The notes beneath the pieces were generated by a model. It ran no database searches, was not told the origin of the DNA, and worked only from the letters and a program-made list of their open reading frames with translations. 64,000 bases of DNA, taken from positions 280,133 through 344,132 of the forward strand of contig KV419431.1 of NCBI GenBank assembly GCA_001630475.1, read 5' to 3'. The first letter of the stretch is position 1. Every line of letters begins with the position of its first letter. The DNA comes from Sistotremastrum niveocremeum HHB9708 (lineage: Eukaryota; Basidiomycota; Agaricomycetes; Sistotremastrales; Sistotremastraceae). Below, piece after piece: positions 13,768 through 45,134 of the stretch. The position numbers were made by a program, and so were the translations under genes.

Positions 13768-13868
13768 GGGCGTTTAACTCAGTTGGTAGAGTGCTTGCTT
13801 CGCATGATCACGTGTTGCTTACGTAATCTGAATGCACGAAGTCGTGGGTTCAATTCCCACAATGTCCA
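13768..13868 (+). tRNA. tRNA-Ala (CGC) with intron
   Basis: The acceptor arms GGGCGTT and AATGTCC pair, with A as discriminator. D stem ACTC/GAGT, T arm GTGGG-TTCAATT-CCCAC fully paired. The anticodon loop reads TT-CGC-A, and a 28-base intron (about 13805-13832) sits after position 37, the canonical place. The anticodon stem CTTGC/GCACG has one mismatch (T28 with C42), so intron ends or gene quality should be treated with some caution. It lies in the spacer upstream of the divergent MCM2 start. Confidence 0.8.
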
Positions 13869-20638: not shown

Positions 20639-22902
20639 ATGGCACCTCCCACCTTCCCAATCAAAGGTATTCAAGAAGACCTGGGCCCTCTACCTGGACA
20701 GACTCCATTGCGACAAGAGATCGACGCTTGGTCCTCTGATCCTAAGAACCAAGTACAAGTGGCTCTCTTCATGCTCGCGCTTGAAGCGTTTCAGAAGATT
20801 CCGTATCACGACAGACTCTCGTATTTCCAGATTGCGGGTGCGCTATGCATATCTTCATATAGAGGTAATACTGATTTATTTCAGGTATCCATGGACTTCC
20901 TCTTGTGCCTTGGGATGAGGACACGACGACGCAAACTCCGGGAACGACGCTCGGATATTGCACTCACGGCAGTATTCTCTTTCCAGCATGGCATAGACCA
21001 TATGTCGCCCTATTCGAGGTAAGCTCTTCTTGGACCGCTTCTTACTTATGGCTGACCCTGCAGTAGCAACGTCTGTATGAAATCATGATCGAAGTGATCA
21101 TACCGCGTTTCCCGCCTGCCACCCACGCGGCTCTCGTGGCTCAAGCCAAAGCCTGGCGTCTTCCATATTGGGATTGGGCGGCTAAAAAGGTCGATCCCAA
21201 TGATCCTTCCGCTCCTCCGAATTACAACCTCCCGCAACTCGTCACTCAACCGGGAGGCCGTATTTTTGGCCCTGAGGGTATTGAAATTGAGTTTCCGAAC
21301 CCGCTGAATACATTCGTCGCCGACGAGCCTATGGGCGAATATGGGATTGTCGATATAGGCAACGCTCCGGTGAGTGTAACTGCAGTCTCGAGTGTGTTGT
21401 TGCCGCTGACGGAGGTGTTGCATTTAGTATAGTATCTGTCGTGCGACAAGCAGATATCCTCCGCCCATCAATCAAGCTGGTGCGAAAGAGGCGTGGACTT
21501 ATGGCGTTCAGAAGAACGATCAAGTCAGAGACGCTCTGCGCGGCCACCAGTGGTATGAAGGTGAAAAGTACACGGATACGTTGGGAGAAGCTGTCTATCG
21601 CCTCTTCTCGCAAGACTATTTCTCCAGCTACGACGCCTTCTCGTCCACTCGATACGCCCATGGCATGCCGCCCCCCGATTATCTTTCTCTCGAAGATATT
21701 CACAAGTACGCGGAGCCGCCTCTATGAGGTCCATTTGTTGACGTAATCATTCCCTTTAGCAATATTCATAACTGGACTGGCGGACCTGGCTTGACTCCCA
21801 CCGATGACGGTGGTCACATGGGTGAGATAGGCGTAGCGGCGTTTGATCCTATCTTCTGGCTTCATCACTGGTTAGTCATTCGTGGTAGTCTACCCCGATT
21901 CACACTCATACTGCCCTCCAGCAACGTCGATCGTCAGTTCGCTATTTGGCAAGCTCTTAACGACGAAGCGTGGTTCTCCGAACCATCTCAACAGCTGTCC
22001 GACCTCGGTGGAAACTGGTCCACCAAACCGAAGACCATCGTTACTCCCGCCACGGCTTTAGCTCCATTCCATTCCGACACCAAGGCCACCTATTATGACT
22101 CCAACACCGTCCGTGAGTGGAGAGCGTTTGGATATTCGTACCCGGAGTTGCAGCCGTGGCTTCCGAAATACTTCCACGACGGGGTGTTCGTCAAAGCCGC
22201 TTATCTCAAAGACATCAGTGAACAAGTCAACGCGTTGTACAATGTCACGCGCACTGATATCCTGCGCTTGCACGACGCTATTGGTGCCGCCGACAAGGCG
22301 GTTGAGGAAGAAGACTGGATTGTGAATGTCCAATATGAAAGGTAATACACGTTTCCTGAGTCGATTCTCCTTCTCACATATCTCCCAGATTCGCACTTGA
22401 CGGCGCATCCTTTACCGTCCACATCTTCATCGGCAAGAACAAGGTCGGCCAGGTGTATAACTTTTGCGCCCCTGGAGGCACTGTTGGCGGATCGGGCGGA
22501 TGTGTCAATTGTCAAGCTCAACAAGAAGCAAGCGCTTTCTCTACCGGTCAAGTTCATATCACGAGTGCTCTGCTCCGAGACGTCAAAAGTAGCACCTCGA
22601 AGTTGTCTCAGTTCCAGGCCGAACATATTGCAGCTTATTTGGCGGAAGGTTTATCCTGGAAAGTCACAAACGTGCGTCAATCTTACCATTGTTATGTACC
22701 GGGGGATCCTGAACATCATGTCGTTCAGAACCGTGGGAGAGAGGTACCGCTCGAAGCCCTTCCGTCTCTCAGGGTTTCCGTGGCCAAAGGGAAAGGAATT
22801 CATTACACAAACAACACCATCCTTTCCAGGTACCATGAGTACGAGGTTTTACCCGAGATAACAGACGGACGTCTGGGAGGCTTGGCTCGTGGTGATTTTT
22901 GA
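20639..22902 (+). CDS. Tyrosinase (polyphenol oxidase) 1
   Basis: Type-3 copper enzyme that hydroxylates monophenols and oxidises diphenols to quinones (melanin and browning). Eight exons keep frame: 20639-20837, 20885-21018, 21067-21369, 21428-21705, 21760-21870, 21922-22341, 22389-22671 and 22729-22902, about 633 residues. CuA histidines are in IHGLP, the thioether motif YCTH and AWHRPY; CuB histidines are in EDIHN-NIHNW and IFWLHHCNVDR. The core ends NVQYER, followed by a C-terminal shielding domain with the CVNC motif that ends [14 protein letters not shown]. No signal peptide is seen, as in mushroom latent tyrosinases. Introns fall inside the copper motifs at the same sites as in the other three copies. 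It is most like tyrosinase 3 ([15 protein letters not shown]). Confidence 0.95.
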
Positions 22903-24154: not shown

Positions 24155-26420
24155 ATGATTAGCCAAACCTACCCCATCACTGGTATTAAAGAGGGCCTCG
24201 GCCCCGCTCCCGGACAGACCCCTCTTCGTCAAGAGATCAGTGCATGGTCCGAGAATCCGGAGAATGTTCAACAAGTCAATCTTTTCTTGTTGGCTTTGCG
24301 ACATTTTCAAGACAACGACGAGATACCGTTCACTGCGAAGCTGTCTTATTTCCAGATCGCCGGTATGTCTGCTCCTCGTATAACATCGAAAGCGCTAACT
24401 TTTTCAAGGTATCCATGGCTTCCCTCTCAAGCCATGGGACGAAAATACCGAGTCAAAAGTACCCGATCTTCAGGACGGTTATTGTACGCACAACAGTGTC
24501 CTATTCCCGACGTGGCATCGTCCCTATTTGATGCTTTTTGAGGTGCGCATTCGGTCTCGAGAATATCACCAATAATTGACCTGATAGTAGCAAAGAATAT
24601 ATGAGATTATGCTCGAGATCATCGCCAAATTCCCGGAGCAGCAACGTGCCACTCTGCTCAAGCACGCCAATGCCTGGCGTTTTCCTTATTGGGACTGGGC
24701 TGTTGAAGGAGCCAAAGTTCCCGCTATTGTCAGCGATGCCAAGCGGACGGTCCTATTGCCTTCCGGATTAACTGCCGAAATCGACAACCCACTTCTTACA
24801 TTCAGGACTCCAGAACCGATGGGCAAGTATGGCATCACGCGCATTCACGAAGACCAGACCCACGATGCTGTCGATGCTCCCGTCAGTATCACTTTCATTA
24901 AGTCTGCTCTGGCTAATATGTTTGCTTAGTACGATCAAGCTCGAGCGACGAGCAGGTATCCACCTGTTGGGTATGCTGAGCCCCAAGATCTTGAAGCCTG
25001 GGTGAAGGGTGTTCAGAAAGACGACATTGTCGCCGACGCCCTGGCCGAGGCCAAATGGTACAAAATTGATCCCACCGTTCATCCGGGTCGTACAGGAATT
25101 CGTGATGCAGTGCATCGGCTTCTTTCCGATAATTACTTTACCACTTACCGGGGTTTCGCTACCACAGCTAAAGGGCAGTCCGACCCTAAGGCTTATCTTT
25201 CTCTCGAATTTGTCCACAAGTGAGTCATGAGCCTTTCGAACGGATCCCTGTAAGCTCAACGACCTACAGCAATATCCACAATTGGGTTGGTGGCGGCGGA
25301 GAACAAGGTTCTCCTTACGGGCACGGTCACATGACTGAGGTACCCGTGGCGGCTCTCGATCCTATTTTCTGGTTACATCATTGGTGAGATGTTTCGTTTG
25401 CTCCGATTGCTTTGCACAATTGACATATAGATTATTAGCAACGTCGATCGTCAGTTTGCTATCTGGCAAGCGTTAAACCCCAATCTGTGGTTCGACAAGC
25501 CGGAGGATCAACTCCCCGACAAAGAAGGTAACTGGTCTACTCCGGGAGGAACGGTGGTCACGCCCAAAACGCCTCTGGCCCCATTCCATAAGGACAAGAA
25601 TGGCACTGTTTGGAACTCAGATGAGGTTCGCTATCTCAAGGACTTGGGTTATTCGTACCCGGAACTACAGCCCTGGCTTCCCAAGTATTTTGTCGGCGGC
25701 GTCTTCCAAGAAGAGCTCTACATTGCTGATATAAAAGCCCAAGTCAATCGCTTGTACAGCTCTACTCGCACCGCCTTTCTTGCTGCGAGTCCCGATACGG
25801 AAGAGGTCAAAGAACAAGATTATATCGTCAATGTCGAGTATGAAAGGTGAAGTGCTTCGCTTTCCGGATATCAGTTTTGTAAACTCGTCTGACAACATGG
25901 GGGGTATCATCAGATTTGCGCTGGGTGGTGAACCATTCGTGATCCATATCTATGTCGGGCAAAACAAAGTTGGCCAGATCTATAATTTTGTTGCACCACC
26001 TCGGTCTACCGGCTGCGCCAACTGTGAAGTTCAACAGGGTGCTCGCTCTCTCGCAGTGGGTCAGGTCCCTATCACTGGCGCGCTCTACCGCGATGCCACC
26101 AATGATCGCATCGCGGAATTGCAGGGTCTGGGCAAAACTCCCATCACGCATTACCTGACCAATGTCAGTCTGCTGACCTGGAAGGTTGTCACGGTATGTG
26201 CTTCAAACTTCTTCAGAAGACTCCCAATCAATGCGATGTTCTTTTCTAGTTGGATGGACAAGAAGTCGCGCCCGAAAAGTTACCTTCTCTCAAGATTCAT
26301 GTGGCCGGAGGGAAGGCCAAACATTTCGCAAATTTCCGCTCTTCGTCGGAGTACAACGAGTATGAGATCTTGTATGACATCACTCATGGCCGGGTTGGAG
26401 GTCTCAATAGACCTGCTTAG
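24155..26420 (+). CDS. Tyrosinase (polyphenol oxidase) 2
   Basis: Same fold and intron layout as tyrosinase 1. It starts [20 protein letters not shown]. Cu[26 protein letters not shown]; Cu[46 protein letters not shown]. All six copper histidines and the thioether cysteine are present. The core ends NVEYER, then a shielding domain with CANC and a normal C-terminus ([15 protein letters not shown]). It is most like tyrosinase 4: both have GPAPGQTP near the start, a GVQ(K/L)(D/N)D motif and a region around PxIVxxA in place of the KKxDPNDP stretch of copies 1 and 3. The TAG at 26418-26420 is followed directly by TGA. Confidence 0.95.
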
Positions 26421-27674: not shown

Positions 27675-29941
27675 ATGGCTCCTCAAACTTTCGCGATTAC
27701 TGGTATCAAGGCTGGCTGGGGACCATTGCCTGGTCAGATCCCTCTTCGTCAAGAGATCGATTCTTGGGCTGCCAATCCGGACAATGCCTTTCAAGTTGAT
27801 CTCTTTCTGCAAGCCTTGGCAATCTTCCAGCAGATGCCAGCAGAGGAGAAGACTTCCTACATCAAAGTTGCCAGTGAGTGGTTCTCGGTCACTGTTAAGG
27901 GCGTTCGAACAAAACTGACAATCGTCAGGCATCCATGGATTGACCTCTGATCCATGGGACGAGGAAGAGAAGACTGAAAATCCCGATGCTAAGCTAGGGT
28001 ATTGCACACACAATAATCAGTTATTCCCAACGTGGCACCGCCCCTATCTCATTCTCTTCGAGGTAAGATGCCCGCGCTCATCAGGCTCAGTATTAGACAG
28101 ACAATTAATGATCAATTTAGCAACTCATTCATCAAATCATGATCACACAAGTCATCCCGCCATATCCAAGTCCATCGCATCGTGCCAAATTGGAAGCCGA
28201 AGCAAAAGCATGGCGCTTGCCTTACTGGGATTGGGCTGCTAAGAAGATCGATCCCAATGACCCCGATGCGCCGCCCAACTACAATGTGCCTGAGATCTTG
28301 CGCCAACCAGAGTGGACCGTGTCGACACCGAGTGGGGTCTCGAAGAAAATCCCGAATCCACTTTATGCCTTCATCACATCAGAGTCTATGGGGACATTTG
28401 GCATTCCGGATGTGGAGGACTCTCCGGTACGATTATTGGGTTGTCTATTACCGCGTACTGACCGAATATCTAGTTTTCTATCTCTCATTCGACCAGTCGA
28501 CATCCACCGAAATACTCGGATTCCACAGCCTCAGTGTGGGTCAATGGATATCAAGATAACGATAAAATTAGGGACGGACTTCGAGGCGCTGATTGGTTCC
28601 CGACGAATGACCCAAGTTCTCCGTGGCAACAGGATTCTCTCGGCGAGGCCGTATATCGATTATTCTCTGAGGGTTATTTCTCAAGCTATGACGCCTTCGC
28701 CACCACCGGATATCATGCCCCACAGAAAGAAACAGAATATCTGTCACTTGAAGGGATCCACAAGTACGTTGATTCACTTGTACCATCGAGCTGTGATGTG
28801 CTCATGATATGTGCAGTAATATTCACATCTGGTGCGGTGGAGGGAATCCGCCCGAGGATGTTCTCCCAGACAGGCCGATCCCTGAGCCGGTGGATGGTGC
28901 AGGCCACATGAGTCGACCAGAGACGTCGGCCTTGGACCCCATCCTATATATGCATCATTGGTAATAGATTATCCAATATTTTGTTTGCTCAGCTCACCTC
29001 CTTCAACAGCAATGTTGACCGCCTATTTGCTATCTGGCAGACCCTCAACCCCGACGCATGGTTTCGTAAACAGCATCTCATCATTGCTGGGCAAGAGCCT
29101 GTCACATCTCGTACACCTCTAGCGCCCTTCCATACCGATACGAAAGGGACGTACTTCAGTTCGGATCTGGCTCGCGATTGGACTCAATATGGATACACGT
29201 ACCCTGAACTCCAACATTGGTTGCCTAAGTACATTGTCGACGGAAAATTCAATCGCGAGCTCTATGTCCAAGACGTTACCGACCAGATCACATCCCTATA
29301 TCAACCGACGTACATCCTCTCTCGTCCTTCGTTCGCTACTGGAACTTCAAGCGAAGAAAATGACTACGTGGTAAACGTCGAGTATGAAAGGTAGGATCTC
29401 AGCTGATATTTCAACGCTGCACGCTGACGTATACACAGGTTCGCTCTGGGCGGAGAGCCATTCACAGTTCATATCTATATCGGCAAGACCAAAGTCGGTC
29501 AAGTGTACAACTTCTCTTCATCACTCCGAAGCATCAATGGATCGATTGCATGTGCAAATTGTCAGGAACAACAACTGTCTGGTGCTATTTCGACTGGGCA
29601 AGTCCCCATCACGGCCCCGTTGTTGCATATTGCCAAACAGAGCCCCGCTCGCTTATCTACTCTTGAACGCGACCATGTAAAGAAATTCTTGCTGGAGGAT
29701 GGATCTTTGAGTTGGAAAGTGACCAAGGTGAGAGCATTCAGCCGTCAGGATTTCGATCAGAATGTGACGCTCCTTTCATCAGTTAAGTGGAGAAGTGGTA
29801 CCCCTCAAAGACATACCTTCGCTGAAGGTATCGGTTGCCGGTGGAAAAGCTCTCCATCATGCTCATCCGTCGCGGGAGACCACAGAAGGCGATGCCAGAA
29901 AGGCACGGCTTTCATTTTTCCATAGTCATGTCACTTTGTAG
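27675..29941 (+). CDS. Tyrosinase (polyphenol oxidase) 3, altered C-terminus
   Basis: Same exon plan as its neighbours, and closest to tyrosinase 1 (MAPQTFAITGIK; KKIDPNDPDAPPNYN). Cu[23 protein letters not shown]; CuB: EGIHN-NIHIWCGGG and DPILYMHHC|NVDRLFAIWQ. All copper histidines remain, but the usual IFWLHH is ILYMHH, SYFQIAG is SYIKVAS, and an extra cysteine appears in IWCGGG. After the last intron (exon from 29783) the text follows the family through PSLKVSVAGGKALHHAHPS, then diverges (GDARKARLSFFHSHVTL) and stops. The family ending, an EVLPEITxGRxGGL-like stretch, is missing and was not found in another frame nearby. The gene is probably expressed as a protein, but its shielding domain may be weakened. 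Confidence 0.9.
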
Positions 29942-33003: not shown

Positions 33004-35229
33004 ATGTCCACCTACGCTATCACCGGTATCCAGCAAAGTCTCGGGCCCGCTCCGGGTCAGACTCCCGTTCGTCAAGAGATCAACGCATGGGCCGCAAACC
33101 CCGAGAATATTGTTGAAGTCAACCTCTTCTACTTGGCTTTGGCTAAATTCCAAGAAATCCCTTATGAAGAAAAGCTTTCCTACTTCCAGATTGCAGGTGC
33201 GTATCTCATTTTCGGTTGTTAACGACCTGACTAACTGAGAATCTGAAGGTATCCATGGGCTTCCTCTCGTCCCGTGGGACGAGAAAACGGAAAGCAAAAC
33301 TCCTGGAACCCAGAATGGCTATTGCACGCATAACAGTATTCTATTTCCCACCTGGCATCGTCCTTACCTCATCCTTTACGAGGTTGGTATCTGTATTTCG
33401 TATCTCAGAATTTACAATGACACTGACATCGATTTTAGCAAAAGATACACGAGATCATGGTCAATGACGTCATCCCACAGTTCCCTGCCAATCAACGACC
33501 CGACTTGATCAAACACGCGAATTCATGGCGTCTTCCCTTCTGGGATTGGGGCTTGAAGAATCCCGACGTCCCCGATATCGTGCGCCCTGCTACAGTGACC
33601 GTGCAGACCCCCAGTGGCCAGACGGCCACCATCTCCAATCCGCTTGCCGCTTTCAAGGCGCCGGAAGCGATGGGGAAGTGGGACATCCAGGCCGTCGGGA
33701 GCTCACCCGTACGTTTTTCTCTGCGAATCGAGATCAGCCATCGCTGAAATGAGTAGTTTGACAAAGCTAGGGCTACTAGCAGGTACCCACCCAAGGGGTT
33801 CTCGCAACCACAAGATGTTGAGGCCTGGGTCAACGGCGTTCAGCTGAACGATCTTGTCCGCGATGCCCTTCGCGGTGCAGATTGGTACCAAAACCCCGTC
33901 GGTCAACCCCCCAAGTATCCCAACAACATCAGCGAAGTCGTATATCGTCTTTTCTCGGAGAAATATTTCTCGAGTTATCTCACATTCGCGTCGACCAATT
34001 TTGTGAACGAAGGCGGACCTGCGGATTATCTGTCGCTCGAGGCCATCCATAAGTACGTTACACTATATTCACGTATGGCTTGGTTGCTGAATGCTCTTTA
34101 GCAATATTCATCTTTGGTCTGGTGGCGGTGGACCAAGAGACAAGACCAACCACGGTGCTGGTCATATGTCGATTGTGCCGGTCGCAGCCTACGATCTCAT
34201 CTTCTGGCTTCATCACAAGTAAGCATGTTCGTCAATTCCCAGACATGATTTTGATGGCATGATAGCAATATCGATCATTACTTCGCCGTTTGGCAGACGC
34301 TCAACCAAGATGTATGGTTCTCCAAGCCTTCCGAGCAGCTCAAGGATCCCAACGGCAACTGGTCCACGGTTCCCGGAACTGTGCCGACTCCGAAGACCCC
34401 TCTCGCACCGTTCCACACCGACACTCACGCGACCTACTTCGACTCTGACAAGGTTCGCGACTGGACGAAGTACGGATATACGTACCCCGAGTTGCAACCT
34501 TGGCTTCCGAAATATCACGTCGGCGGTCAATTCAATCATGACTTGTATATCTTGGACATCAGGACTCAGGTCAATAAGCTTTACGGGACGACTCGTGATC
34601 AATTCTTTTCTATCGATTCTGGAGCGGATGTACTTGACAAAGAGGACTATGTCGTGAACGTTGAATATGAAAGGTACGTTCTTTGCGATGGGATCGAGTA
34701 TATGGGCTCACACCGCTATAGATTTGCGTTGGGTGTCGAGCCGTTCGTCATCCACATTCTCCTCGGCAACAACAAAGTCGGCCAAGTGTCAAATTTCTCC
34801 TCGCCTCCCGCCGAAAGTGGATGTGCGAACTGTGAAGTCCAACAACAAGCTCGTGTCGTCTCCACCGGCCAAGTCCCCATCACCGACCCCTTGGTTTCTG
34901 CTGTCTCCGACGAAAAGATCGCGCTTTATGACCTCGGTCCTGATTCTATTGGTCACTATTTGAAACATGGCAACAACTTGAACTGGAAGGTTACCAAGGT
35001 CAGCTGGCCACTGCTCGATTATACGCTCATCAATGATTGATATTATTGGCGCTAGATCGATGGGGAGGAAGTTCCTCTCTCCGAGATACCGTCTGTCAAG
35101 GTTTCCGTCGCGGCAGGCAAGGGCAGTCATTACAAGGATCATAAGAAGATCTCCAAATATCATGGGTATACTGTGTTGCACGCCGTCACGGAAGGACGCC
35201 CCGGTGGTCTCGGGCACAATGATCATTAG
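33004..35229 (+). CDS. Tyrosinase (polyphenol oxidase) 4
   Basis: Starts [21 protein letters not shown]. Cu[26 protein letters not shown]; Cu[47 protein letters not shown]. All six copper histidines are present. Next to the last one the usual HHCNVDR reads HHNNIDH: the cysteine is asparagine and the conserved arginine is histidine. DPIF is also DLIF. These sit at the mouth of the active site and may alter activity or substrate choice. The core ends NVEYER; the shielding domain has CANC and the normal end [18 protein letters not shown]. Closest to tyrosinase 2. Intron sites match the array. Confidence 0.95.
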
Positions 35230-35870: not shown

Positions 35871-38846
35871 ATGGATTCTTCAGAAAGAGGACTCAAGATC
35901 AGGGGTGAGAAGCAAGGGATTGAAGTGTCGAAGAGCGGAACAGACTTCGTTCTACAGTGTGTATCAACCATAATCGATCCTCTGCTCGTTAGTTGAATTG
36001 ATTGACAGGAATTGGACGAAGAGCAATTGGGCGACCTTCGTCTCCGCCGCGCCTTTGGCGATAGATTCGTTGGGCGGGCTACTTCTGACTTCGTCTGGGC
36101 TTTTGGACTTTAGTATGTTCTTGGGTAGATCAGCTCTTCGCGTACTCATACTACTTGACCAGACATCGTCTCAAATTTGACTCCTGAGCAAGCAAGGTCA
36201 TTCTTTCAACTTACCAAAGCTCCGTCTACGTTTAAGGCTGCCTTACTCGATGTCAGTAATTTTCATCTGGGACCGCTGTCGTTCTGATCGCCGTGGAATC
36301 CTACAGGTGTCTGTGGCGGCTAAGGACGCGTTTTTCATCGCGCAGTCCAACATGGATACTATCGGTTTGACCACACGTTCGCTGAGGGACGATGTATTCC
36401 AGAATGTCATCAACCTATTGTAGGTCTCCAGCCCTCTTCCATCTTGGAAGATACTGAAGATACTGAAAGTAATTCCTAGGCGAAGACCTGACCCAGAGAG
36501 GATACGCAAACTCTTGCCGAAGAGAATCGCCTTGATGTTGGAGTTGACCGCAAAATGTGAGAAGGCGGCGAAAAGTAGCGAAGAGAACTTCGAGTCGCTC
36601 GCGGTGCTTACTCGTGAGTTGTTCTCGTTTGACGCGATACTAAGTTCTAAGCTCGGATTATTGTAGGAGAGCTTCGACTGGCTACGCTGCAGAAAGGGGT
36701 GACGAATAGATCGGAACTTGATCAGGTCAGGAGTTCCTTGATTGCGGACAATCTGGCCACTAAAGTACAAGTCGGCAGATCAATCGCAGTCTCGCATATA
36801 CAGGCGAGATTCTCAACGGCGAGCGTCTTCAACTAGAAAGCCTGGAAGCTGATGCCAAGAAAGCAAACGAGAGGATAAAGACAGCGGAGAAAGATTTGAC
36901 TAAGGCATTCGATGACGTGAGTCTGATAATACTGAAGGCATATATCCAAGCTGATCCACGTCCAGTTCCCTCCTCACAGCACACTCATCAAGTACTTTCT
37001 TCTCGACGCTGGCGTGATGTTCGGCAAGTTCGCAATCGGCGCAATTTTCCCCGCCGTAGGAGCCGGAATGGCATTCAACGAACTCATGAAAAAGTTAAAC
37101 AAAAAGGACGGCGAAGATGATTCAGAAGATGACAAAGACGAGAAATCTACTACCGGCACTGTCGATCCCAACTTGAGCATCTCCCGCAAATTGCTAATTG
37201 CAGCAAAGATGACTGGCGTTCTGCTCGGTCTTGAAGGATCCACAGTTGATTGGCATCGGATCGTTACGGACTCCTCGACTGGGAAAGGTGTTGGATACAT
37301 CGTGCAGAAGATGGTTGCCGAATCATTAACCTCTTTGGCGGCGGAAACTCAGACAGATTCAGGTCAAGAGGTCAAAGAACAGGGTGATATTCTGGCGAAA
37401 GTAAGTTTCGTCTGGTGTGCTCCCTTTAGAATTCTGATGACTCTCTTTCGACTCAGCTGGTGGACGAGGTATTGAAGCTTGCCACCACGACGAAGAGCGC
37501 TTCAGAAGTCGCGGGTATTCGAGTCAAGAATGACGGCGTAATTGACTCACTGGAGAGCCTCGATCCTGGCACCAGCGGGGTATCTAAGAGTTCGAGAGCA
37601 GTGAAGAAGCCGAAGCCGAAGTCTGGGAGTTTATACGGCGAGCAAGCTATCGATGCGGCTTTGGTGAGCAGAGCATCACTTTCTCGGGCTCGTATGCGAT
37701 CTGATGTGCGATGAAGTGGAAGTTGAAACAACAAGGACGTGTTCTTGAAGACGCTCATAGGCGTGGATGGAAGATCCAGAGTTCTATTGAAGATCAGGTG
37801 AGTTCTCGAATCCATTCGGCGGGTCTCATGCTGAACGCGACTCTAGCAAGAGAAGATTAACACTACACTGGTCGAAGTATCTTCATTGATACAAGATCAG
37901 AATGATTTCGAAGGTACGCCACTGAACGAGATAGAGATATCCGATAGGCTTATAGGGATGATCAGCGATCAAACGAGCCGTGGATCTGCTGTCTGGAAGC
38001 TTCCTGGAAATTACTGTCAGCTTCATGAGATTGGCTTCATTCTTCAAGAATATGACCAACCTCATCACTCTATCTCTTGAGCCGGCAATCGAACGTTTGA
38101 ACGATGCTTTAACTCTGGGCATCAAAGATGCCGCGGAAGGATTGCCTATCTCTAGTGAGTTCCGCAGTGGTCTCTCAGCACCTTCCGTTACTCATCAACC
38201 GCCATATTAGATCCTGTCATCGAAAGCATACATAGGCTGACTGCCTCGCCGTCTATGTACGTCGTTCGCGTTGTCTTAGGTGCAATATATTCATCTCGGA
38301 TAGGTACATGCTCCTAGCAGAAATCATCGCGAAGACGTATTACAACATATCGAAAGAGCACATCATGCCTATGGCATCCTGTTTGGTATGATCACGTCTC
38401 ATCATTGCCCGTTCAATGGTCTCACACACGTTGCTTTCAGGACCAGATGTTACTTCTCAGGAAACAGGACAAGGTGGCATTTGCGAGAGAGGTGGACGAA
38501 AAGCGCACGGAACTCAAGACAGTGACGTACAAGGCCGCAGAACAGGTAAAGCACATCGTATCACATATGACCTCATTCATGCTGATCGCACATTTATCGT
38601 AGATCAAAGCGATCATTGCGCAGGAGACTGCTAATTGGAGTAGCAAGGTCAGTCTCCGATTGAAGGAGATTGATGATGATGTCAAACGTTTGCTCCCGGT
38701 TCGCGAGAATGGAGGTGCGTTGACTTCTTCTTTTGGGGAGCATGGTATCTGAGCGCTGAATGATCTGCGTAGATAATGCTATCACTGAGGGAGGGGATAA
38801 AGAAGATGCTGTCATGGGGCTTGTCAAGCTCGCATTCTTTAGCTAA
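35871..38846 (+). CDS. Coiled-coil paralogue A, unknown function, with hydrophobic segment
   Basis: I do not recognise this family. It starts MDSSERGLKIRGEKQG and is cut by about 15 short introns; roughly 700 residues. Early block: NWTKSNWATF, PLAIDSLGGLLLTSSGLLDF, NIVSNLTPEQARSFF. Then long amphipathic, helix-forming stretches (LNGERLQLESLEADAKKANE), followed by a strongly hydrophobic glycine-rich run (VMFGKFAIGAIFPAVGAGMA) able to span a membrane, an acidic linker (KKDGEDDSEDDKDEK), and more helices with DWHRIV and SFFKNMTNLITLSLEPAI. It ends DAVMGLVKLAFFS. No signal peptide. Every block has a counterpart in the next gene, with introns at the same places. The plan (helical bundle, hydrophobic hairpin, helical bundle) recalls helical pore-forming proteins, but that is only a shape argument. 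Confidence 0.7.
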
Positions 38847-39136
38847 GGCAAAGCCAAACTGGGATAGTTCAATTGGAACGCTGTTCACTCGTGTCGTTCA
38901 GTCGCTAGCCTTGGGCCTACTGCATCGTATCATTATTCTCCTTCGTCATGTGCGCGAATACACCGACTATGCCTCCAATTGATTCATCTGTTATGGTCCA
39001 TACAAGATGCACATGGATGATGGAACGCTTGACAATGACAGGCGATCACAGATCTTCATGACGGGCATTCCCACCTGTGTCGTTTTCGAAGCACTCCGAA
39101 TAATTACATGCATATCTAAGAATTCCGGGAAGCGAA

Positions 39137-39182
39137 TTAGGGTTTAGGGTTTAGGCTTGAGTGCGGTAGGTAGGTAGGTAGG
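39137..39182 (+). repeat. Telomere-like TTTAGGG run and GGTA microsatellite
   Basis: 39137-39155 reads TTAGGGTTTAGGGTTTAGG, almost three units of TTTAGGG, and 39165-39182 is (GGTA)n. It lies between the two coiled-coil paralogues, about 360 bp before the second ATG. A short interstitial telomere-like tract or a telo-box promoter element are both possible. Confidence 0.7.
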
Positions 39183-39513
39183 CGGATGGGAAGAGAATGT
39201 AAACTTCGGGATAAGATGGAATTGTAATCGGAGCGGAGTTCGGAAGCGAAAGAATACCTGTCAAGAGTAAGCGCTATGCGGATACTTTCATTCTGTTCTT
39301 CTAGCCGCTGCCACCGACGTCGCACTTACCGACACCACACAAAAAGCATACAGCTCGCGTATCTCGCAATGATCTTAAGTTCTCATTGTCATGAATGTCG
39401 TGTCGGACGCGAACAAGAGCCAGCCATGGGACCCACTGGCACGAGCCTTTAAATGAGAGAGATGCAGAGTCTCTGCGTAGTCGATAATCACTGTTTCAAC
39501 CACCTTGACCACT

Positions 39514-42500
39514 ATGTCGCTTTCAGTCGCAAATACAGAAAAAGCTGCTGAAAATCAGCTCATCCAGCCCAAAGTCGACGGCACTGTCAGCACCGTCCAA
39601 GAGGATTTCTATCTGCAGTGAGTCTGGTCTCATATCGTATGCTGATGTTGTCTAAAAGATGACATGCGTAGGCAATGGACGGGCAATGCATGGAGTGCTT
39701 TTATTACTCCTACACCACTGGCGATCGAAGCGTTGGGAAGCATGATTTTAACCTCCTCGGCCGTCACGGATTTCAGTGAGCATGCGATTGAGCATCCAAT
39801 CTCGAATAATTCTTGATCTTATTATTTCCAGGCATTGTGGAACATCTCACTCCGGAACAGATCGAAACCTTCTTCGTAGCGACACAGAATCCCTCTACGT
39901 TCGCAAATGCCTTGATGGACGTCAGTCGCGTGTCATCTATCTCACTTGAACAATCTCGCTGAATAAATATGTATCAGATGGCTTTGCAAGCCCAGCATGC
40001 TTTCGACACGGCTGAGAGAAACATGCGAGTGATCGGCGATCAATGCAGCCAGATCCGAAAGGATATTGTGCCGGACGCAATTGAATTCCTGTATGTCCAC
40101 ACAATCTGTGCAGTCGAAAAAACTCAGGCATCACCCTCAGAAAAACCGGGACTCTCAAGCAAGTGAAATATATACTCCCTATACGCCAAGAAAATTTGGC
40201 GGCTGCCACCAATGAGTGTGTCAAAGCTGCCGACGAGATCCGCAATGCTTTCCGCTATCTTGTTGCGTTATCTCGTGAGTGCCATATGCTTGAGTTCCAT
40301 GATCATCGATTTACTTGTGTTGCGGTTCGAAGGTGAATTAGGGATAGCAACTAGCGTTCGAAATGATCACACACAAGGGGCTCTCGCTGAGGTATACGAT
40401 TTCCTTCCAGCAATGGAATGTTGCTGACATTTGCGAATAGATAACTCGAAAACTCAAAAGCAATGCGGAAATTCTGAAAGGCCAAGAAAGTCAACAAGAA
40501 GCTTTGAAGGAGCAGGCGACGCTCGTTGGCAAACGATTGACGAAGGCGGAAGAACATTATGGCAAGATGTTGGATGCGGTAAGTGTTTCCGTTTTCAACC
40601 TGTGCTCTGACTCAAAGCTCATGTTCGACCCAGTACCCTTCAGATAATCGTCTCCTCGGTCTTATGGCAATTGATGCCGCGAAAGATCTAGCGAAAACAG
40701 CCATCGACGGCTACTTTGCGTCAAAAGGATCTAGCGGTCTTCCGACACTAGGCTCTAACAAGAAGGGCAGCAACAAGAACAAGAAGGGAACAGACTCCAA
40801 AGGTTCGACGGATAAAGGCGGAAAGACCGGGAAGACCGGGAAGACTGGAAAGACTGGGAAGACCGCGAAGACCGAAAAGACCGGGAAGGCGAAGGGCACC
40901 TCGACGTCGACCAAAAAGCCTGCCAAGAGTGAAAAGCCGGCGAAGGAAGCGAAGACGAAATCCAGTGGGGGTGCTGAGAAGGAGAAGGAGAAGTCTGCGA
41001 AGTCAGGGGATGCGAAGGATACGAATAAGAAGGACGATGCGAAGGAGAGCAAAGAGAAGGAATCGACGACGACTTCGTACAATTCTACAACGATCAAAGT
41101 CGCTCTACCACATAATGACTCGGATGAGTCAGACGACGACGAAGAGGAAGAGGAAGAAGAGAGTGATGGCGATGCCGAAGAAGAGGGAGAAGATGCTGAC
41201 GACGACGACGACACTGCGACAAAGCTCGTTCCAAACTCCAAAGACCTCGCCGATCCGGCTATTACTCTCTCTGGCGCCGTACTTCGCGCCGCTCAAATGC
41301 TCAAAGCGCTCGTGGGTACGACCAAGACGGATTGGCACTCGATCGTTCCGGATGAGCAGAAGAAGAGAGGCGGCATCATCCTCGTGAAGACTTTGTTGGA
41401 CGGCATCAACGAGGCTATTCCCGATAAGGAGAAGCCCGCTTTCAGCAAGAAACTCTCTGAGATGATTTCGGACGTATCCCAGGTATTTTCGTGCTCCAGG
41501 AAGTAAACCAGGGCTAACATCCCTCCTATTCAGATTGCCGATGATCTCGAGAACCTCTCCAAGACCGAAGACGAAACGGGCGTCCCTGCTTTGAGGACCA
41601 AGATCGGAGAAGCCATCGAGAAATTACAGGTCGAAGATACGAAAGCCAAAGCCATCACTGAAAGTCGTGCTACCGATGATGCCGGAGCCAGATCACCCAT
41701 TAGTCCGACACCGAAGACGACTGCCGATAAGCACAGTGCGAAGAAGGCCATATCTTCAGCTCAGATTGCAATCGATAGCGCACAGGTGTGTAATTCTTGA
41801 TCTTAATGTTGTGTACACAATAGATCTAATTCTCTCATAGCAACGCATCACTCAGGCGTACGACGCTTGGCAGCAAGCACAAGATAGAGAAGCAAAGATG
41901 AACGAGCAACTTGCTGCACAAGTAAGAGCCTTGTTATTACTCGTGCAACGTCACTCCTCACAATCGCTCAATGTGCCTAGAGAGCTAAGATTGCGCAGAC
42001 CATGGCTGATATCGCAGCTCTGAATTATGATGAAGACAACATGACAGGTTAATTGTGATTACCAATGGGCATAATGGTCGCTAATGATGAACTGTGCAGC
42101 GTTGCAGAAAGCCATCAATGAGCTGTCGAAGACTTTTATCGCCATCACCAATAACTTTTCGCGCTTGACCAGCTTCTTCCAGAGCATGGCGCTCCTGGTG
42201 GAGAAAGCTATCCTTCCTGCTATCAAACGTCTTCTCGACAACGTCAAGCTTGCTGAGATGGACAGGGAGGAGGCTGAACGAGTTTCATGTATGATCACGG
42301 ATTCCGCACTACGTTCGTCAGCCTGACAGAATGTTTAGCTGCGGCCATGGAGGGTATTTACCGGATGATCGTGACTCCCTCCATGTAAGCTATTCCGTCA
42401 ATCTTTGCCCTCTTCCGTGCGCTCAGATTCTCTGGCAGGCACGGTTATTTGGCCGAATTAGTCGCCGGAACCTACATCTCAGCATCGGTCGAATTTGTTC

Positions 42501-43075
42501 AACCCATGCTGCTAGTCCTTGTGAGTCACAAGTATTTTCGGTCATACGACTGAACTGAAGAGATTCCTAGACTCGACTGAAAGTATCTCGGGGTGGCGAA
42601 ACGGCGGAACAGTTCTCAAAGTTGCTGGAGGAGAGAAAGAATGAGCTGCGGGCGGCTACCAAAAAGGCATCAGATAACGTAAGCTTGGTCACGTCACCTA
42701 TACTATCTGACCCGAACTTTTATCTTTTAGATGGGGAGGGTCATTGAGCTTGAAACTCAGTCTTTCCGAGTCAAGATCGTGGCTCGTGTCACTGAAGCCC
42801 AGAACAACGTCAAGTCCCTCGAATCCACCATCAAGAAGGTCAATCCCGCCTACGTCATTCCTGCGCGTAAGTGCTGGTTTCAGTCCTATAGAGCGATCAA
42901 AAGACTCATTGATTGTCTCTTTCAAGTTCCACCTGCTGTAGTAGAGATCAAGAAGCAGATCGTTGAGGATTCTGTCCAGGCTCGTATCGAGCAAGATCCA
43001 AAGTATGGTGAAACATCGGACGACGACGACGACGACGACCCGCTTGCTCAGTTGGCTGGTATTGCATTCCAGTGA
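39514..43075 (+). CDS. Coiled-coil paralogue B, unknown function, with charged insert
   Basis: Tandem paralogue of the gene before it; roughly 900 residues, about 17 exons. It starts MSLSVANTEKAAENQL. Shared blocks: QWTGNAWSAF, PLAIEALGSMILTSSAVTDF, SIVEHLTPEQIETFF, SRELGIAT, ITRKLKSNAEILKG, DWHSIV, and LTSFFQSMALLVEKAILPAI. The first introns fall at the same codon and phase as in paralogue A. Where A has a hydrophobic run, B is milder (RLLGLMAIDAAKDLAKTAI), and it then carries a long insert: a lysine-rich KTGKTGKTGKTGKT repeat (from about 40823), followed by an acidic stretch of D and E. It ends DDDDPLAQLAGIAFQ. No signal peptide. The pair may act as two partners of one complex; this is inference. 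Confidence 0.7.
40823..40890 (+). repeat. Coding minisatellite (KTG repeat) in paralogue B
   Basis: Nine-base units close to AAGACCGGG encode K-T-G about five times, then degenerate. Likely unstable in length between strains. Confidence 0.75.
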
Positions 43076-43917: not shown

Positions 43918-44115
43918 ATGGCCGGTGAACATGTATGCAGCTGCGGTACTAAGTACGTTTATATTCTCTGGGGCTGCCGTAGGCATTGCTGATACGCCAA
44001 TCATCGCGTAGCTGCTCCTGTCCTACTGTGAGCTATCCTGACATTGTATTTATATTAGTCCCCCTAAGGCAGTTGGTTCTAGGGACAGTGCAAATGCGGT
44101 ACCAAAACCAAATGA
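43918..44115 (+). CDS. Metallothionein, 27 residues, three exons
   Basis: Metallothioneins chelate copper(I) through cysteine clusters and protect the cytosol. The gene is too small to show as one open frame. Exons: 43918-43952, 44012-44027 (only 16 bases) and 44083-44115; total 84 bases, in frame. The product begins MAGEHVCSCGTNCSCPT and ends GQCKCGTKTK. Six cysteines form three C-x-C pairs (CSC, CSC, CKC) in 27 residues, close in size and layout to the short copper metallothioneins of Neurospora and Agaricus. Donors and acceptors are canonical (GTACGT, GTGAGC; GTAG, CTAG). A strong TATA box lies upstream. It is followed by a copper transporter gene and then a copper-binding surface protein gene, which supports a copper role. 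Confidence 0.82.
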
Positions 44116-44563: not shown

Positions 44564-45134
44564 ATGTCCGGGACGTTTTGGATCACACAACACCGATCTC
44601 TAACAAGTGGTCTATTCGCACTCTCATTTTTCGGACTCCTTGGCCTCGCCATCGTCTACGAAGGCGTTCGCCTTCTACAGACTCAGTTCGAGGTCTGCAC
44701 AGCCCACAAAGAGGTCGAGAGTAACGGAACCAATCTAGGAGCGCTTCCAGAGATTGGAGAGCGCAACCCTCTTATTGAAAGGAGGCCCAAACGTCGCTCT
44801 CCGTGAGTTACTCGATATCCAGCGCATTTTCGAGGGCTCTTACCGTGACTTCAGGCGCCTCAGTTCATTTTTGTTTCGTCTCCTGCGCTCAGCCTTGTAT
44901 GGGATAAGCGTGTTCTTGGCGTTCTTCCTTATGCTCGTTTTCATGACTTACAATGTGAGTCTTGTCCCAACTCTTATCACGTCGGTTGGCTGATGATTCT
45001 TCGATGCACAGGCTTATCTCATTCTTGCTGTTGTCCTGGGGGCGACGACTGGGCACTTTATCTTCAGTCCCTATATGAATGTCGCGGGAGATATTTCTGA
45101 AAGGCAGCTGGCCCGAGGAATTGCTTGTCATTGA
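44564..45134 (+). CDS. Ctr-family copper transporter
   Basis: Ctr proteins form trimers that carry copper(I) across the plasma or vacuole membrane. Exons 44564-44802, 44855-44954 and 45012-45134, 153 residues. TM1: GLFALSFFGLLGLAIVYEGV; TM2: YGISVFLAFFLMLVFMTYN with the copper-binding MxxxM (MLVFM); TM3: AYLILAVVLGATTGHFIF with the GxxxG packing motif. The loop between TM1 and TM2 is long and hydrophilic, as in fungal Ctrs. No methionine-rich N-terminal domain is seen; the only in-frame ATG is at 44564, though an upstream exon cannot be excluded. The C-terminus ends GIACH, with Cys-His near the end, which may bind copper. It lies between metallothionein and BIM1-like genes on the same strand. 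Confidence 0.82.

Follow-up and report, generated by a model that had tools for sequence, protein, structure and literature searches.

Two adjacent, intron-matched paralogues in Sistotremastrum niveocremeum, a possible intracellular coiled-coil scaffold pair

Two neighbouring genes on one strand of a Sistotremastrum niveocremeum HHB9708 contig, here called A and B, encode related proteins of no recognised family, and the question they raise is how such a pair arose and whether its two members act together. The window is the whole 64,000-nucleotide stretch of DNA that we analysed, and its end is also the end of the contig. A first-pass annotation had described the pair as unrecognised paralogues with matched early introns and had likened it, as one hydrophobic and one more soluble partner, to binary helical pore-forming systems. 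The span that it gave for the two genes is exact, since 35871 is the first base of the ATG of A and 43075 is the last base of the stop codon of B.

In the predicted splice models (Table 1), all 16 introns of each gene are of the GT–AG type, with lengths of 47–60 bases in A and 49–60 bases in B. These hand-checked models replaced the automatic ones, in which 8 of the 16 introns of A were as in the final version and B ended early at 42023. Because some splice sites were picked by hand with the partner gene in view, which introduces circularity, fair support for the intron match comes from introns 1–8: in A these are backed independently by a protein deposited for Sistotremastrum suecicum, and introns 1–9 of B are unchanged from an automatic exon search that did not know A. 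The acceptor of intron 9 of A is ambiguous in this sequence-based model, at either 37716 or 37722.

Table 1. Position of genes A and B, their notable segments and the neighbouring copper-related genes (window coordinates unless a contig is named)
Feature	Position	Strand or place	Remarks
Gene A	35871..38846	+	17 exons, 706 aa; predicted splice model
Gene A exons 1-6	35871-35956, 36009-36112, 36163-36251, 36307-36419, 36480-36613, 36667-36725	+	
Gene A exons 7-12	36779-36916, 36966-37400, 37457-37663, 37717-37797, 37847-37913, 37966-38154	+	
Gene A exons 13-17	38211-38256, 38304-38385, 38441-38545, 38603-38714, 38773-38846	+	
Glycine-rich hydrophobic run of A, aa 246-280	36978..37082	+	KD19 peak 1.56
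Second, milder hydrophobic segment of A, aa 311-345	37173..37277	+	KD19 peak 1.40; contains DWH-x-IV
Gene B	39514..43075	+	17 exons, 899 aa; predicted splice model
Gene B exons 1-6	39514-39617, 39672-39775, 39832-39920, 39978-40090, 40141-40274, 40333-40391	+	
Gene B exons 7-12	40441-40578, 40634-41482, 41534-41785, 41841-41921, 41981-42047, 42100-42288	+	
Gene B exons 13-17	42339-42384, 42439-42520, 42571-42678, 42731-42866, 42927-43075	+	
B counterpart of the hydrophobic run, about aa 252-279	40646..40729	+	KD19 peak 0.83
Charged insert of B, 170 aa	40733..41242	+	K/T/G-rich, then an acidic run; open throughout, predicted as coding; ends approximate
Four tandem tyrosinase genes	near 20866-21871, 24402-25381, 27922-28077, 33248-34219	upstream of A	Pfam exon matches
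Metallothionein-like ORF	43918-44115	downstream of B	three exons, 27 aa, Cys-rich, MAGEHVCSCGTNCSCPTGQCKCGTKTK; label our own
Ctr copper transporter	44564-45134	downstream of B	Pfam E 9.3e-26; N-terminus may lack upstream exons
BIM1-like gene (X325, His-brace type)	46051-about 46880	downstream of B	end read by eye
Second Ctr and BIM1-like pair	C7:552705-554291	same genome	

The two proteins are homologous over most of their length. BLASTP aligns them at 36.3% identity over 256 aa (E 1.4e-47) and 27.7% over 386 aa (E 4.3e-41), phmmer gives an E value of 4.6e-87, and 227 of 703 aligned positions are identical. The blocks W-T-x3-W-x2-F, PLAI-x2-LG, LTPEQ-x3-FF and DWH-x-IV, which had been noticed as shared, all stand in the alignment. 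The match of gene structure goes well beyond the early introns first remarked on, with the phase common to A and B at 16 of 16 introns and the alignment column at 15 of 16; the sole mismatch, intron 16, falls where the C-terminal parts align poorly. In both genes, 11 of the 17 exons (2–7 and 10–14) have the same length. That the two genes are tandem paralogues, as the first-pass annotation had it, is thus borne out by protein similarity and matched introns alike.

At the nucleotide level, the introns retain no residual similarity, with an identity of 0.600 for matched pairs and 0.605 for unmatched ones. The proportion of synonymous differences (pS 0.81) is saturated, so that no rate ratio is obtainable, and it exceeds the non-synonymous proportion (pN 0.47), a difference that fits constraint on both predicted proteins. 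On these sequence grounds, A and B go back to the tandem duplication of a single intron-rich gene, and both reading frames have been kept; the duplication reads as old because the matched introns lack similarity and the synonymous sites are saturated. Tandem duplication followed by divergence is an ordinary evolutionary event, here in a protein family to which none of the libraries searched gives a name.

Protein database searches with A and with the first 262 residues of B found a single relative, the 458-aa SISSUDRAFT_1046114 of S. suecicum HHB10207 ss-3, and none from the B query. This protein, the apparent orthologue of A, covers 64% of A at 90% identity and agrees with it at 420 of 457 aligned positions, which suggests that the two fungi are close relatives. 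Its likeness to A fits identical splicing of exons 1–9, but it lacks the C-terminal third, and its record gives no function; the deposited model stops where intron 9 of A starts and apparently reads into the intron. An S. suecicum B was not found in the protein database, which may only mean that its model is mis-cut. The search needs shared 5-residue words, of which A and B have two in common and B and SISSUDRAFT_1046114 four, and because of this dependence relatives no closer than B could escape it. A sole database relative therefore means little for absence elsewhere and is not, at the level of sequence matching, evidence of a lineage-restricted family.

Family libraries were equally sparing. 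There was no convincing match in Pfam (A and B whole, plus four parts), in NCBIfam (A whole and two parts of B) or among PDB sequences (A, the C-terminal part of B, and profiles of A plus B); HMMER models can miss very distant family members. The C-terminal part of B drew SMC (7.4e-5) and Rad50 (0.0013), both far below their cut-offs. Such a cross-match to coiled-coil ATPases is of the weak heptad type; no ATPase domain was found, and the SMC score of 20.7 bits compares with a cut-off of 567.35. A JAB/MPN match in the PDB, obtained with A plus B profiles at E 0.0061 and 0.0025, was set aside as chance; its E value was 1.1 with A alone, and it was absent with the C-terminal part of B. The weak family matches of A and B look like generic coiled-coil signal or chance. 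PADLOC, queried with SISSUDRAFT_1046114 and exon 8 of B only, gave one weak match to the former (E 0.029) and nothing for the latter, and PHROGs gave nothing for SISSUDRAFT_1046114, its sole query. None of 89 pattern matches in viral contigs, or of 26 and 252 in prokaryote genomes, was confirmed by tblastn.

A search of the fungus's own genome (a 34.7-Mb assembly in 111 contigs) likewise returned no convincing second copy of A or B, giving this locus and three weak matches. Two of these, C18:563455-563739 (E 0.117) and C61:111208-111468 (E 0.87), have E values of 0.33 and 1.7 at whole-genome database size and of 0.009 and 0.006 in a small pool of fetched stretches. The third, found in the small pool, covers A aa 336–417 at 22% (E 0.068) and sits close to an exon of a tyrosinase gene on C38. 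Shuffled queries in the same pool, in five rounds, reached a best E of 0.17, and an A/B profile search of open frames in the fetched stretches a best E of 3.5. The reading frames of the C18 and C61 candidates look unlike A and B, and all three matches are unlikely to be true copies.

What the proteins do has to be approached through their shape. A heptad signal stands out in B, where, by a simple home-made score that is not a published coiled-coil predictor, the two best of its windows at 659–700, 597–638, 774–815 and 203–244 reach 0.73 and 0.72, above the maximum of 200 shuffles (0.65); the next two windows, at 0.62, are within the shuffled range. The best windows of A (197–238 and 498–539) peak at 0.67, inside a shuffled range with a mean of 0.48 and a maximum of 0.73. 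AlphaFold2, run on the truncated A orthologue SISSUDRAFT_1046114, gave low-confidence models that were mostly helix without a usable fold, both with the single sequence (pLDDT 38.8) and with exon rows added (pLDDT 33.3). By eye, the first 25 residues of A and of B contain no hydrophobic stretch and no evident signal peptide.

The first-pass annotation had made A the hydrophobic partner, with a run of membrane length. A does exceed B here (Table 1), but the run itself, with Kyte–Doolittle peaks of 1.56, 1.53 and 1.34 in 19-, 25- and 33-residue windows, was equalled by 683, 331 and 229 of 1,000 shuffles of A, respectively, and is unexceptional given the composition of the protein. Its conservation speaks for a role: 34 of its 35 residues are the same in the S. 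suecicum orthologue and 9 of 35 in B, and for the second, milder segment the counts are 33 and 13 of 35. The KTG repeat and acidic insert reported for B are both real. The repeat is a 9-base tandem unit at 40819-40888 that reads as K-T-G, and the insert containing it interrupts the homologous region between its two hydrophobic segments.

Our preferred reading, held tentatively and at somewhat less than an even chance, is that A and B are an intracellular pair of helical coiled-coil scaffold proteins, kept as two different proteins after duplication. After the tandem duplication, two distinct proteins, most likely intracellular, were retained. Helix probably makes up most of both, and their amphipathic heptad stretches would give a rod- or bundle-like scaffold. 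The likeliest use of these helices is in oligomerisation, quite possibly of A with B. The conserved hydrophobic run of A would then most likely provide a surface for tight packing or for peripheral docking on membranes, with the charged insert of B as a flexible spacer. Paralogy and matched introns, the excess of synonymous over non-synonymous change, the heptad score of B, the SMC and Rad50 cross-matches, the lack of an N-terminal hydrophobic stretch and the conservation of A in S. suecicum all favour this reading. Against it stand the heptad score of A, which does not leave the shuffled range, and the two low pLDDT values, which concern the truncated A orthologue only. The near-invariance of the hydrophobic run between two species also argues against a purely soluble scaffold, of which it would not be required.

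Divergence this deep lends itself to another account, in which A and B have taken up unrelated intracellular jobs, do not act together and are adjacent only as a relic of duplication. The low proportion of identical positions is what this account would predict, as is a B protein that lacks most of the hydrophobic run and carries a large insert; that the genes are still adjacent and in the same orientation, despite saturated synonymous sites, weighs weakly against it. We consider it rather unlikely, though worth keeping in mind.

The remaining functional proposal is the one with which the locus was first put forward, that A and B form a eukaryotic two-component helical pore-former like YaxAB or XaxAB, in which the hydrophobic tip of A docks and B assembles. 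Passages on these bacterial toxins in two papers (PMC5935710, PMC6086661) describe assemblies of two different helical subunits, as proposed for A and B, with a helical bundle, a long stalk formed as a coiled coil and a foot of hydrophobic or amphipathic character that inserts into the membrane; YaxA attaches to membranes unaided through its exposed tip. Two adjacent, unequal paralogues, the hydrophobic run of A preserved between species and the helix-rich, if low-confidence, models of the truncated A orthologue would all suit such a system. Yet A and B, compared by sequence alone, match neither YaxAB nor XaxAB, nor any pore-former family in Pfam or NCBIfam, and the run of A is not exceptional against shuffles. 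The tip of B would moreover have to bear a highly charged insert of 170 residues between the two segments of its putative membrane hairpin, just where the membrane tip would be. Size is a further difference, as XaxA and XaxB have roughly 340–410 aa, far fewer than the 706 and 899 aa of A and B. Narrow full-text searches of an open-access library returned no paper on helical pore-formers in fungi, although such papers may be in print elsewhere. The link to binary pore-forming systems is thus unsupported, and we regard a pore-forming role as very improbable; were the full-length protein to fold as a helical pore-former, the finding would gain in importance.

The genomic surroundings, which the first-pass annotation did not mention, are worth a look in their own right. 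A and B lie between four tyrosinase genes upstream and a metallothionein-like ORF, a Ctr gene and a BIM1-like gene downstream. The 27-aa metallothionein-like peptide has no match in Pfam; the BIM1-like gene fell below the Pfam cut-off in one search and just above it in another, and in its predicted product a His follows an apparent signal peptide. Across the genome there are 24 tyrosinase exon matches (on contigs C18, C21, C28, C38 and C70), at least three Ctr loci and at least two BIM1-like loci, and both BIM1-like genes adjoin a Ctr gene. A passage in one paper (PMC7924993) describes Cryptococcus Bim1 as working with Ctr1 in copper uptake.

These neighbours invite the idea that A and B serve copper or melanin metabolism, for instance by scaffolding tyrosinases or membranes that handle copper. 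The genes on both flanks and the repeated pairing of BIM1-like with Ctr genes speak for it. The stretches fetched around other Ctr, BIM1-like and tyrosinase loci, however, contain no convincing A- or B-like gene, the weak A match beside the C38 tyrosinase exon being taken as chance. Among six copper-gene promoters, shared words did not exceed the frequency seen in shuffles, and of the top promoter words listed, one 6-mer occurs in the promoter of A and none in that of B. Neighbours in fungal genomes are, besides, often unrelated. We therefore think this role quite unlikely, and its combination with pore formation, a fungal membrane-perforating system of two helical components within the copper and tyrosinase cluster, in which A would dock and the charged linker of B would hold assembly off, is the least likely reading of all. 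Membership of the pair in the surrounding copper and melanin gene neighbourhood, if proved, would nonetheless raise the importance of the finding.

Several other features of the window deserve a record. A short telomere-like stretch, TTAGGGTTTAGGG, lies at 39137-39149, between A and B. Near the contig end, a weak integrase-core match (PF24764, 62140-62733, E 2.2e-5, below cut-off) is perhaps a transposon remnant. At the Rfam gathering score, the window contains a single match, a tRNA gene at 13768-13868, whose length of 101 bases suggests that it contains an intron.
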